Below, one piece after another: positions 24,724 to 28,465 of a stretch of DNA of 64,000 bases. The notes under the pieces were generated by a model. It was not told the origin of the DNA, ran no database searches, and was given only the letters and a program-made list of their open reading frames with translations. The first letter of the stretch is position 1; each line of letters starts with the position of its first letter. Position numbers and translations under genes: made by a program. This stretch comes from Numidum massiliense. Lineage in GTDB: Bacteria; Bacillota; Bacilli; Thermoactinomycetales; Novibacillaceae. The stretch spans positions 1,233,758 to 1,297,757 of the forward strand of contig NZ_CTDZ01000009.1 of assembly GCF_001375555.1 (NCBI RefSeq), in the 5' to 3' direction.

Positions 24724-25738
24724 AGCCGTCTTACGTTATTTTACACAGTCGAACGCGTACGTTTCTGGGGAGCGCCTCAGCGAGGCGCTCGGCTGTACGC
24801 GGACAGCCGTTTGGAAGCAAATCGAGGAGTTGCGCGCACTCGGTTACGTTTTTGACGCTAAGCCGCGCAAAGGATACCGCTTAGTGTCTCGTCCCGACGT
24901 CGTGCTCGCCGAAGAAATTAAGTGTTTTAACGAGGCCGCGCATATCGGGCAGGAGGTGCGCTACGTGGATACGACTCCTTCGACACAACAGATCGCCCAC
25001 AAATGGGCGCGTGAAGGGGCTGCGCACGGTGCGCTCGTCGTTGCCGACGAACAGACAGCGGGCAAAGGGCGGATGGGACGGTTTTGGCATTCGCCGCCGG
25101 GCAGCGGCATTTGGATGAGTTTCATTTTGCGGCCGGCGATCCCGCTCGTTTATACGCCACACTTGACGATCTTAGTCGCTGTCGCAGTGACGCGAGCGCT
25201 GCGTCGCGCCGCCTCTGTTGACGCCCTCATTAAGTGGCCGAACGATTTGTTCATCGCTGGCCGAAAAGTGTGCGGCGTCTTAACCGAAGTGCGTGCAGAA
25301 GCGGATCGGATTCATTACGTCGTCGCCGGCGTCGGCATTAACGTACATACGACGAAGGAAGATTGGCCGCCGGAGTTGCGCCCGATCGCGACATCACTCA
25401 CGCAGGAAATCGCGCATGTGGAGGGACAGTCTATTACCGGCGGAGCCGTAGAAGACGGCGATTACGGCGAAGAAAAGCCGCACCTGTCCCGTGCGCGCAT
25501 TATTGCCGCTTGTTGCGAGGAACTCGAACAACTGCTCAACATGTATGAGAAAAATGGTTTTTCTCCGATCCGCTCCCTTTGGGAGAGTTACGCCTTCATG
25601 CTAGGACAAACGGTGACTGTGCGCGCGTCCGATGGAACGAAGCGGGGAAAGGCACTCGGGTTGGACGAGAGTGGCGCCTTGCTTTTGCAGACGTCGCAGG
25701 GCGTCGAGCCGATTTTTTCGGCAGACGTCTTAGTATAG
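24704..25738 (+). CDS. birA: Bifunctional biotin-protein ligase / biotin repressor
   Basis: N-terminal winged helix (about 1-62, with CTRTAVWKQIEELRALGY), then the ligase domain with biotinyl-AMP loop GKGRMGRFW (121-129) and KWPNDLF, and a C-terminal SH3-like cap. Attaches biotin to acetyl-CoA carboxylase and similar proteins, and probably represses biotin genes. Its substrates here would include the YngHB-like carrier at 54.8 kb. 344 residues; a hydrophilic insert lies around 240-260. Start overlaps cca by 20 bp. Confidence 0.95.
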   Translation: MDLTLREAVLRYFTQSNAYVSGERLSEALGCTRTAVWKQIEELRALGYVFDAKPRKGYRLVSRPDVVLAEEIKCFNEAAHIGQEVRYVDTTPSTQQIAHKWAREGAAHGALVVADEQTAGKGRMGRFWHSPPGSGIWMSFILRPAIPLVYTPHLTILVAVAVTRALRRAASVDALIKWPNDLFIAGRKVCGVLTEVRAEADRIHYVVAGVGINVHTTKEDWPPELRPIATSLTQEIAHVEGQSITGGAVEDGDYGEEKPHLSRARIIAACCEELEQLLNMYEKNGFSPIRSLWESYAFMLGQTVTVRASDGTKRGKALGLDESGALLLQTSQGVEPIFSADVLV

Positions 25739-25774
25739 CGGGTCAAAAAAGTTACACAACGTCTGCTCCTACTG

Positions 25775-25783
25775 TGCTATACT
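25775..25783 (+). promoter_or_regulatory. Extended -10 promoter before panB leader
   Basis: TGCTATACT: TG at the extended position and TATACT as -10. No clear -35. A start near 25790 would give a leader of about 258 nt before panB. Confidence 0.55.
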
Positions 25784-25789
25784 GAGGGC

Positions 25790-26000
25790 GAAGGAACGGC
25801 TGTATCCGCAAGGAACGGCACGCATCCCTTTTTTGCATTTACGAACTTAAACAGATGCACGTCTGCACTCGTGCAAAAGACGTTAAACGGTTAGCTGCTC
25901 TTATCCGCATGGAAAGAGACGGTTGTTGTACCGCATGCAAAAAAATGGGATTAAGACGAGTCGGACCTTCCGTATGCCTTTTTGGCTGGAAGGTTTTTTT
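25790..26000 (+). ncRNA. Structured leader of panBCD (candidate Pan-type RNA / attenuator)
   Basis: AAGGAACGGC occurs exactly twice (25791-25800, 25810-25819), and a third related unit TCCGCATGGAA is at 25903-25914 (compare TCCGCAAGGAA at 25805). Hairpins include TGCACG/CGTGCA (about 25856-25875), and a compound stem GCATG..CGGT/ACCG..CATGC with a one-sided purine bulge (about 25907-25938). A terminator follows at 25965. Tandem small hairpins upstream of panBCD are how the Pan RNA motif is described, but I could not test this against its model. Confidence 0.5.
25965..26000 (+). terminator. Terminator/attenuator just before panB
   Basis: ACCTTCC (25965-25971) with GGAAGGT (25988-25994), inner GCC/GGC stem, then seven T residues. 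Placed 48 bp before panB it would regulate, not end, the unit. GAAGG at the 5' end of the leader could pair with the left arm as an antiterminator. Confidence 0.75.
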
Positions 26001-26047
26001 AGTACAGTCGCTTCTGAAACGCTAAAAACGTAAAGGAGTGGCAAACG

Positions 26048-26893
26048 ATGCAACGAGTGACAGTAGGGCGCTTACAAAAAATGAAGCGCGAAGGAAAACC
26101 GATCGCGATGGTGACGGCGTATGACTTTCCGACAGCCCAGCTCGCAGAAAAAAGCGGTGTCGACGTCGTCCTCGTCGGCGATTCGCTCGGCATGGTCGTA
26201 CTCGGTTACGAGTCGACCGTTCCGGTGACAATCGCGGACATGGTACACCATACGCGGGCGGTGCGGCGCGGGTTGGCGCGTCCGCTCTTAGTTGCCGACT
26301 TACCGTTTCTAACGTACCACCAAGGAGAGCAGGCGGCACTTACTGCAGCCGGGCGCTTAATGCAAGAAGGAGGGGCGACGGCAGTAAAAATGGAAGGCGG
26401 CCGCGAGCTCGCCCCGACCGTTGCCGCATGTGTCGCAGCAGGCATTCCGGTGATGGGACACATCGGTCTTTTGCCGCAAGCGGTTCATCAGACCGGTTAC
26501 CGCATTCGCGGGAAATCGGTTCACGAAGTGGAGCAGTTGCAACAGGATGCCGAGGCGCTCGCCGCGGCAGGCGCGTTTGCGCTCGTCCTCGAATGCGTCA
26601 CCGAGGAAGTGGCGCGCGCCGTGTCCGAAGCAGTGGCGATCCCGACGATCGGCATCGGCTCTGGCCGTTACTGTGACGGACAAGTGCTCGTATTTCACGA
26701 CCTCGTCCGCTTCAGTGCCGGCGATTTTCTCCCGTCTTTCGCCAAAACGTATGCCGATGTCGGTACGGCGGTGCGCGAAGGGCTCACCCAGTACGTCAAA
26801 GACGTGAAAAGCAAGCGATTTCCCGACAGCGAGCATACGTTTCGCGCATCGGATGAACTCGTGCAACAGTTGTACGGCGGTGAACGCGTGTGA
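26048..26893 (+). CDS. panB: 3-Methyl-2-oxobutanoate hydroxymethyltransferase
   Basis: First committed step of pantothenate synthesis, adding a hydroxymethyl group to alpha-ketoisovalerate. The metal and substrate region VLVGDSLGMVVLGYEST, the HTRAVRRG loop, KMEGG and MGHIGLLPQ are all intact. 281 residues. AAAGGAGTGG precedes the ATG. First gene of panBCD; overlaps the panC GTG start by 4 bp. Expression is probably set by the leader terminator. Confidence 0.98.
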   Translation: MQRVTVGRLQKMKREGKPIAMVTAYDFPTAQLAEKSGVDVVLVGDSLGMVVLGYESTVPVTIADMVHHTRAVRRGLARPLLVADLPFLTYHQGEQAALTAAGRLMQEGGATAVKMEGGRELAPTVAACVAAGIPVMGHIGLLPQAVHQTGYRIRGKSVHEVEQLQQDAEALAAAGAFALVLECVTEEVARAVSEAVAIPTIGIGSGRYCDGQVLVFHDLVRFSAGDFLPSFAKTYADVGTAVREGLTQYVKDVKSKRFPDSEHTFRASDELVQQLYGGERV

Positions 26894-27990
26894 GTATGAG
26901 GACTCAGCCTCGTCAACAGAGCGAGCCGTTTAACGAAAGCCCACCACGTAACCGACGGATGCAAGTGGTGTCGACGATTGCCGCCTTGCGCGACGCGTTA
27001 CGACAGATCCGACAGCAGCGAAACCATCATGTGACAGTCGGTTTCGTGCCGACGATGGGATATTTGCACGAGGGGCACATCAGTTTGTTTCAGGAGGCGC
27101 GGCGTAGGTGTCATGTCGTCGTCGCTTCTGTCTTCGTCAATCCGCTACAGTTCGGCCCGTGCGAAGACTTTGCCACCTACCCGCGGGACTGTGAACGGGA
27201 TCGGGCCCTGGCGGAGCGAGGGGGCGTCGACCTACTGTTTACACCGGCAGTTGAGGAGATATATCCGCAGGTGCCGCTGAAGCGACAGACCCCATCGCCG
27301 CGATCGAGTTCGACCCAATCGTCGCAACGGCTACTGCTGACGACTGTCTCCGTCGCGCAAGTAGGCGACGGGTTGTGCGGGGCGTCACGGCCCGGACACT
27401 TTGACGGCGTAACGACCGTCGTGGCGAAACTGTTTAACATCGTGCAGCCGGACAAAGCGTTTTTTGGGTTAAAAGATGTGCAACAAGTGGCGGTCATTAC
27501 GCAGATGGTGACAGATTTGAACATGCCCGTCGACATCGTCGCCTGTCCGACGTTGCGCGAGACAGACGGTTTGGCGATTAGTTCGCGCAACGTTTATCTT
27601 ACTTCGCCAGAACGGCGCCAAGCGCCTATTTTGTACCGTACACTTCGTGAGGCGGCACGCCGCGTACGCGAAGGGCAGTGGCGGACGGCTGCGGAAGTGA
27701 CCGAATGGGTACGCACGACGCTTGCCACCGCACCGCTCGCGCGAGTCGACTACGTCGAGCTGCGTACCTTTCCCGAGTTACGGCCGGTCGACCTTCTCGC
27801 ATATAGCAGCGATTGCTCCGACGACTTTGCGCGGCGTGAATCGGACGGGGTAGATGAACCGGACAGGTCGATCGATTCGGACGAGTTGGGCAAGTTGTGC
27901 GAATCGTACGTGCTCGCCGTTGCCGTTTACTTTGGACGCACGCGTCTAATCGACAACGTCGTGATCGACGGTGAGGGGGCGCTGCCGTGA
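26890..27990 (+). CDS. panC: Pantothenate synthetase with two inserts
   Basis: Joins pantoate and beta-alanine with ATP. Nucleotidyl-transferase motifs are intact: PTMGYLHEGH, the GLKDVQQ segment and ISSRNVYL. 366 residues against about 285 normally. Extra material is an N-terminal stretch of about 23 residues, a Ser/Gln-rich insert after YPQVPL (about 128-150) and an acidic Asp/Ser-rich insert near the C-terminus (about 300-335). GTG at 26890 overlaps panB; ATG 26896 or ATG 26959 are other possible starts, the last matching the usual family N-terminus but lacking a ribosome site. Confidence 0.94.
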   Translation: MSMRTQPRQQSEPFNESPPRNRRMQVVSTIAALRDALRQIRQQRNHHVTVGFVPTMGYLHEGHISLFQEARRRCHVVVASVFVNPLQFGPCEDFATYPRDCERDRALAERGGVDLLFTPAVEEIYPQVPLKRQTPSPRSSSTQSSQRLLLTTVSVAQVGDGLCGASRPGHFDGVTTVVAKLFNIVQPDKAFFGLKDVQQVAVITQMVTDLNMPVDIVACPTLRETDGLAISSRNVYLTSPERRQAPILYRTLREAARRVREGQWRTAAEVTEWVRTTLATAPLARVDYVELRTFPELRPVDLLAYSSDCSDDFARRESDGVDEPDRSIDSDELGKLCESYVLAVAVYFGRTRLIDNVVIDGEGALP

Positions 27991-28081: not shown

Positions 28082-28465
28082 GTGTTCCGAACGATGATGA
28101 AAAGTAAACTCCACAATGCGACGGTGACTGAGGCGAATTTGCACTACGTCGGCAGTATTACGATCGATGCCGATTTACTTCGTTTAGTCGATATGTTGCC
28201 GCACGAAAAAGTGCAAGTCGTCAACAACACTAACGGCGCGCGGTTTGAGACGTATGTGATCGCCGGCGAGCGGGGGAGCGGAACGATCTGTTTAAACGGG
28301 GCGGCCGCACGCTTAGTACAACCTGGGGATCGCGTCATCATTATTGCGTATGCGTCGATGGCGGATGCGGAAGCGCGACAACATTGCCCGCAAGTGGCTG
28401 TACTCGACGAGCAAAACCGCGTCGTGCAGACGTTTACTTCCGAACCCGCAGCACACATCGTATAA
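28082..28465 (+). CDS. panD: Aspartate 1-decarboxylase (pyruvoyl enzyme)
   Basis: Makes beta-alanine for PanC. The self-cleavage site G24-S25 in HYVGSITID yields the pyruvoyl cofactor; [11 protein letters not shown] and CLNGAAARL are conserved. 127 residues, same as B. subtilis, and the GTG start gives the matching N-terminus MFRTMM. GAGAGGGG lies upstream. In the 91-bp gap after panC the unit AAGACCTTACG appears twice. dinG, which follows panD in B. subtilis, is absent. Confidence 0.97.

Follow-up and report, generated by a model that had tools for sequence, protein, structure and literature searches.

The window, a stretch of 64,000 nucleotides from the Numidum massiliense genome, carries the leader region analysed here between the end of birA (25738) and the start of panB (26048). 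panB (26048–26893, + strand, as are all features with coordinates below; Pfam Pantoate_transf, E 4.8e-108) is the first gene 3' of the leader and is followed by panC (26890–27990; Pantoate_ligase, E 1.8e-101) and panD (28082–28465; Asp_decarbox, E 2.1e-53). These three genes were assigned by Pfam, and birA was assigned by its open reading frame and position. PanC is 366 amino acids long and its Pfam match spans residues 25–358 against a profile of 268 positions, which means that it carries an insert; a serine-rich stretch lies around residues 131–147.

Architecture of the leader

An earlier note, made from the letters of the sequence, had placed an exact 10-bp repeat with a third related unit, a compound stem with a purine bulge and a terminator between an extended −10 promoter and panB, and all of these elements were recovered. 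The extended −10 element TGCTATACT is at 25775–25783, 12 nt before the start of the first pan hairpin (P1) in the model, and the transcript is expected from the sequence to start near 25790; a two-hexamer promoter scan of 25500–26300 gave no match. The intrinsic terminator (25963–26000) consists of a hairpin at 25963–25996 (−16.9 kcal/mol, z −3.48, 1 of 200 shuffles as good) and seven T at 25994–26000; a simple consensus terminator scan did not list this hairpin. Folding of the leader (25785–26060) gave −86.7 kcal/mol compared with −73.95 kcal/mol (sd 4.75) for shuffled sequences (z −2.68, 1 of 200 as good).

P1 (25797–25822) was located by model alignments and folding and has 10 pairs, bulged A25804 and A25820 and a GCAA tetraloop; its region alone (25790–25825) folds with −11.6 kcal/mol (z −2.59). 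The second hairpin, P2 (25895–25922), has bulged A25903 and A25919, and its base is extended to 25888–25933 in the predicted fold; the region 25886–25930 alone gave −14.5 kcal/mol (z −2.34). The compound stem with a purine bulge of the earlier note corresponds to P2 with these bulged A and its extended base. The exact repeat AAGGAACGGC is present at 25791–25800 and 25810–25819, for which the chance in about 270 nt is 0.04 by a rough estimate. It is explained by the pan fold, since the copies fall on the strands of P1: copy 2 is the P1 3' strand, and copy 1 comprises the likely transcript start and the first part of the P1 5' strand. The third related unit lies in P2 (25902–25921) and is 80% identical to 25803–25822.

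Further helices are predicted around P2. A linker-spacer helix of 15 pairs with a 2-nt bulge (5' arm 25824–25838, 3' arm 25935–25951) would enclose it, and the domain 25824–25951 gave z −3.35 with 2 of 200 shuffles as good. The linker between P1 and P2 contains a hairpin-forming insert (25850–25892), placed by the predicted fold and by comparison of motif spans: the window copy spans 131 nt compared with a median of 96 and a maximum of 135 in 148 other leaders, and some named panB loci have longer spans, up to 172. A possible hairpin over the panB ribosome site (26007–26042, with 26007–26015 pairing to 26034–26042) was no better than shuffled sequence (z only −0.75) and may be due to chance. 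A pairing between the loop strand of P2, GCATGGAA, and TTCC-GT-ATGC in the terminator had been picked out by eye and was rejected (−9.0 kcal/mol, p 0.48 against shuffled arms; also absent from the partition function).

Relation to the pan motif

The pan motif (RF01749; Weinberg et al. 2010, PMC2864571) is described as a stem interrupted by two conserved bulged A, mostly in tandem, upstream of panB, panC or the aspartate decarboxylase gene panD. The passage on pan in PMC2864571 suggests protein binding, probably as a dimer; it makes no mention of terminators, though the annotated alignments of that paper may mark them, and an unpaired 3' tail lies outside the description given there. In the window, the leader upstream of panB, panC and panD shares with pan the tandem hairpins with two bulged A each, close behind a promoter; A25804/A25820 and A25903/A25919 fall on the conserved bulges. 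It differs in having TTGT at the position of the conserved unpaired 3' tail (25923–25926; consensus AaGG), in its score below the Rfam gathering cut-off, and in the extended P2 base, the linker insert and the linker-spacer helix.

Infernal search with the Rfam pan model, the check proposed in the earlier note, matched 25796–25926 with 33.1 bits (E 3.8e-4 for the 64-kb stretch, 1.05e-3 for the whole genome), below the gathering cut-off of 36.2. A gathering-level Rfam scan of the 64 kb listed no family because the pan score was under this cut-off, and pan alone was found on the leader at E up to 10, by which other Rfam families were ruled out. The low score probably stems from the long linker and the lost tail, and the cut-off was treated as a curation threshold and not as a biologically defining feature. 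An independent covariance model, built from 50 relatives with the window excluded, gave 40.3 bits (E 3.6e-7) for the window copy as the sole match in 64 kb at E up to 10; the same model recovered 60 of 80 named panB loci, three of which (L033, L067, L086) are on the same contigs as training rows. In the alignment of these 50 relatives, 15 of 23 pairs changed on both sides and 92.5% of cells were paired; on each of five measures the observed level was reached by 0 of 500 shuffles, and the pairing broke down when the partners were slid. The outcomes that the earlier note had named as speaking against its assignment, no model match and no covariation of the stems in relatives, did not occur, and its reading of tandem hairpins before panBCD as the Pan motif is borne out by both models and the covarying stems. 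On these grounds the leader is assigned as a divergent tandem pan RNA (RF01749). It is the single pan match in its genome, in which panB is also single (whole genome searched).

At E up to 1e-3, the search of relatives gave pan RNAs in 30 of 41 genomes (the own genome is among the 41 and outside the 30), and the corresponding counts were 221 of 398 genomes for the class and 115 of 299 for the phylum; this filter missed the window copy, which appears at E 1.05e-3 in a search of the two genomes of its family. The sole other genome of the family (L014) has P1 and P2 nearly letter for letter as in the window copy and keeps the repeat AAGGAACGGC with one change in the alignment. Unlike the window copy, its leader scores over the Rfam cut-off (48.5 bits), has a short linker and partly keeps the tail (AGAA instead of TTGT); the linker-spacer helix is absent from its minimum-energy fold.

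Pan leaders (149, window included) were examined for promoters, terminators and genes. A TATAAT-like hexamer ends 5–14 nt before P1 in 102 of 149 leaders and at 5 of 149 control positions, which places P1 near the transcript start. Behind P2, a terminator hairpin with a T-run at −10 kcal/mol or better was present in 119 of 149 leaders (window included) compared with 32 of 447 dinucleotide shuffles; some leaders scored as lacking a terminator seem by eye to have one, e.g. where the gene start was wrongly projected. The first recognised gene, by tblastn similarity, was panB in 92 leaders, a DUF2520 reductase-like gene in 36 (with panB further on in 30 of these), panC in 11, BirA in 2, an SBF transporter in 2 and panD in 1; among the five leaders with none of these, Pfam identified a BioY, an ECF and an OPT transporter, one each. 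The pan RNAs that precede SBF, BioY, OPT and ECF transporters and BirA instead of panBCD (L166, L168, L178, L184, L205, L149, L190) are useful for guessing the ligand. Since DUF2520, BirA, SBF, BioY, ECF and OPT genes occur besides panBCD, this wider gene set points to a signal tied to the supply of pantothenate or coenzyme A.

Pairing between pan strands and terminators

In many leaders the 5' arm of the terminator contains CCTTC or CCTTTC, and the end of the pan model, CaG at the P2 base followed by the unpaired AaGG, is the complement. For the class-level comparison, the 149 leaders (no duplicates removed) were reduced to 120 with a terminator at −9 kcal/mol or better within 110 nt of P2, to 115 after redundant tail-arm pairs were dropped, and to 114 without the window; these form 52 families, which are related to each other. 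The P2 3' strand and tail paired with their own arm at −11.45 kcal/mol by family, compared with −10.28 after random exchange of arms among families (a value as good arose in 1 of 2000 permutations) and −8.35 for shuffled arms. Helix scores of 6 or more were reached with 57% of own, 43% of foreign and 19% of shuffled arms; at 8 or more, own and foreign arms were at 9% and 10%. When the tail was paired with 138 other terminators of the same loci (60 drawn per leader) the mean was −8.26 kcal/mol, and the own arm was stronger in 45 of 52 families (Wilcoxon p 1e-8, families taken as independent) but better than 95% of these natural terminators in only 5 of 52. When each leader was folded as far as the terminator loop, the P2 3' strand or tail paired with 31% of arm bases, compared with 16% for shuffled arms (119 leaders).

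The register of this pairing was concentrated at model positions 86–92 (64 of 114 leaders, 36 of 52 families; shuffled arms gave means of 19.9 leaders and 14.4 families with maxima of 29 and 20). At model position 87 the pair with the arm was A-U in 37 leaders (19 families), G-C in 15 (9), G-U in 9 (6) and A-A in 3 (2), and within P2 the same position changes between U-A and C-G (alignment columns 87–116). As position 87 exchanges both with the arm and within P2, it seems in these alignments to be one base serving two partners. Part of the tail-arm signal is base composition: the tail is purine-rich and the arms are pyrimidine-rich, the tail is the preferred partner for 33% of shuffled arms and for 75 of 114 real ones, and the advantage of own over foreign pan arms is modest (62% of leaders pair more strongly with the own arm than with the average foreign one; median rank 0.40). 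Sequence statistics support an attenuation model for the class.

Several leaders show other complementarities. In seven relatives from the order (L006, L008, L011, L017, L018, L022, L025), CTCT or CTCTG after the terminator, before CCTCC/CCCC, is complementary by eye to the pan tail CAGAG. In four Paenibacillus leaders (L035, L043, L061, L072), GAAGGG stands behind P2 and CCCTTCGGACCTT at the terminator, which by eye may offer two blocks of complementarity to the P2 3' strand. L010 and L019 come from two genomes of one genus; in them GGAGG or GGAGATGAG continues the P2 3' end shortly upstream of panB (by a few bases), and a scan of this short stretch found no terminator. This is a hint only that the tail would there be placed at the ribosome site.

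In the window copy, pairing of the P2 3' strand or tail to the terminator arm has a probability of 0.000 in the ensemble, and with TTGT for AaGG the usual switching strand is, as far as can be read from the letters, lost. For this copy the earlier note had proposed that GAAGG at the leader start (25790–25794) pairs with CCTTC in the left arm of the terminator (25966–25970). Such pairing is possible, but taken alone and with the terminator arm only it was no better than controls, both in the window (p 0.144 and 0.122 in one test, 0.132 and 0.147 in a second; in a third, 0.23 against shuffled and 0.53 against foreign arms) and in L014 (p 0.111 and 0.253 in the second test, 0.115 and 0.36 in the third). 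It is, however, half of a longer composite helix in which the candidate strand GAAGG-AA-CGGCU (25790–25801) pairs with AGUCG-GA-CCUUC (25959–25970), a segment overlapping the terminator 5' arm; the second half of the candidate strand would otherwise pair within P1. This helix has 10 pairs and −15.1 kcal/mol, GAAGG/CCUUC being followed by a 2-by-2 internal loop and then by CGGCU (25797–25801) with AGUCG (25959–25963) just before the arm. It beat shuffling of either side (p 0.0034 and 0.0042, 5000 shuffles each) and 0 of 118 foreign segments were as good; these fitted windows were chosen after the helix had been seen by eye, and the comparison comprises two related sequences. Wider windows that were not fitted to the helix gave p 0.012 for the window copy and 0.017 for L014, with 0 of 118 foreign segments as good in each. 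L014 shares the leader start GAAGGA and AGTCG with CCTTC (CCTT kept in the comparison of the partner segments) before and in the terminator, and there the same composite helix, GAAGGAGCGGCUG with CAGUCGUGCCUUC, has −18.6 kcal/mol (p 0.0046 and 0.0030; 0 of 118 foreign).

Competition between P1 and the composite helix was modelled for the leader before the terminator 3' arm. In the window, −57.3 kcal/mol was obtained with P1 forced and −55.8 kcal/mol with the composite helix forced (1.5 apart), and in the free ensemble the probability was 0.63 for P1 and 0.10 for the CGGCU half of the composite helix; since the forced folds are nearly equal in energy, the two are predicted to be real competitors close to balance. 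For L014 the values were −44.7 and −49.7 kcal/mol, and the composite helix is predicted to outcompete P1. Behind the L014 terminator, GCTCCTTCAC is complementary to two places, the leader start GTGAAGGAGC and the likely panB ribosome site GAAGGAG, and in this fold model a second, translational layer is possible.

The P1 5' side was also considered as a general switching strand and rejected, the family-level difference being weak (own −8.13, permuted −7.55 kcal/mol; 65 of 2000): at p 0.05 such pairing was found in 6 of 27 leaders of the order and in 9 of 93 others (class and phylum), hence it is not general. In three more leaders of the order (L023, L024, L017) the P1 5' side pairs with a segment before and in the terminator at −21.5, −17.5 and −20.1 kcal/mol. 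From such sequences, a P1-side switch may extend beyond the family of the window.

Proposed attenuation model and rival readings

With a probability of about two in three, the window leader regulates panBCD as a pan RNA, through transcription attenuation. A strand belonging to one of the pan hairpins would have two alternative partners, its own hairpin or a segment including the terminator 5' arm. When a partner, either a protein or a metabolite from the pathway of pantothenate and coenzyme A, holds the pan fold, the strand would be occupied, the terminator would form and the operon would be off; when the fold is unheld, the strand would capture the terminator arm and transcription would read on. 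In the class at large the switching strand would be the P2 base with the tail, CaGAaGG, and in the window copy, which has lost the tail, it would be GAAGG-AA-CGGCU with AGUCG-GA-CCUUC. The pan identity, the covarying stems, the promoter position, the terminator and the complementarities, each with its controls, can be read directly from the sequences. The near-equal stability of the two states in the window is a prediction of the folding energies. We infer that the two states compete in the cell, that a present partner means off, and what kind of partner is involved.

Terminator-type OFF riboswitches share a strand between the sensor domain and the antiterminator. The strand proposed here for pan would likewise be shared by the sensor domain and the antiterminator, with the difference that, to our knowledge, no ligand is known for pan. 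The switch proposed in the earlier note is upheld in part: the composite helix occurs in both genomes of the family and is near the stability of the P1 fold, but in the class at large it is the P2 tail that is complementary to the terminator. Its interpretation is supported as far as a pan RNA with a plausible switch, which falls short of a proven switch.

That the leader-start strand is the switching strand of the window copy has slightly better than even odds; these were raised from a chance well below even because the pairing continues upstream of the arm and the longer helix was tested. The strand has probably moved to the leader start in the window copy, as the earlier note had partly suspected. 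The broader proposal has two parts. The first is that the orphan pan RNA uses its unpaired 3' tail as the switching strand, which would be shared by the P2 base and the terminator arm and in two leaders would lie at the ribosome site; the second is that in the lineage of the window this strand has moved from the P2 3' side to the 5' end of the transcript and there competes with P1. Taken together they are tentative, at somewhat less than even odds.

It is unlikely that the terminator of the window copy is unregulated by the pan fold and that the RNA is decaying or works at the level of translation or stability. The lost tail, the score under the Rfam cut-off and the P2 base locked by extra pairs agree with such a state, as does the inability of the 5-pair GAAGG helix alone to beat controls; but P1 and P2 retain both bulged A and nearly all pairs, the terminator is strong (−16.9 kcal/mol), the composite helix beats controls in both members of the family, and this copy and panB are each the single match in the genome. 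A hairpin could cover the panB ribosome site, yet its z of −0.75 is no better than that of shuffles. A different origin of the switching strand, the linker insert of the window pairing with the segment before the terminator instead of the leader start, draws on a 14-mer that starts 64 nt into the motif and pairs with ACGAGTCGGACCTTCC at −15.2 kcal/mol, as good as the leader start; it is improbable, as the insert is absent from L014, where the best other place reaches −16.8 kcal/mol compared with −18.6 for the leader start.

The attenuation model is compatible with a protein partner of pan, probably dimeric, in place of a small molecule, and we consider such a partner nearly an even chance. Simple tandem hairpins and conservation outside the stems that is mostly limited to the bulged A are in line with the suggestion of the discoverers of pan (in the pan passage of PMC2864571), against which stands that no candidate protein is known from the literature searched. 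ANTAR-type antitermination sites have two hairpins in tandem near a terminator and a conserved loop. The tandem hairpins near the terminator of the window resemble this architecture, but pan loops vary in length and letters while the stems and bulged A are kept, and an ANTAR-type site is very improbable here.

The literature was searched for a mechanism or ligand of pan and none was found, nor were direct data on binding of small molecules (many papers in subscription journals and supplements were outside the scope of the search). PMC4342826, PMC4634765 and PMC5670726 list the motif, in the sections that name it, in the 5' region of the pan operon or among RNA elements, and reviews count coenzyme A, in their passages on ligands, among those without, or long without, a known riboswitch (PMC9971707, PMC10043782). 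In the literature found, no mechanism and no ligand have been given for pan RNA since it was described in 2010. Comparison with relatives suggests that pan elements could switch genes by deciding whether an RNA stop signal forms. Naming the switching strand makes a plain mutational test possible, and the direction of regulation is predicted.
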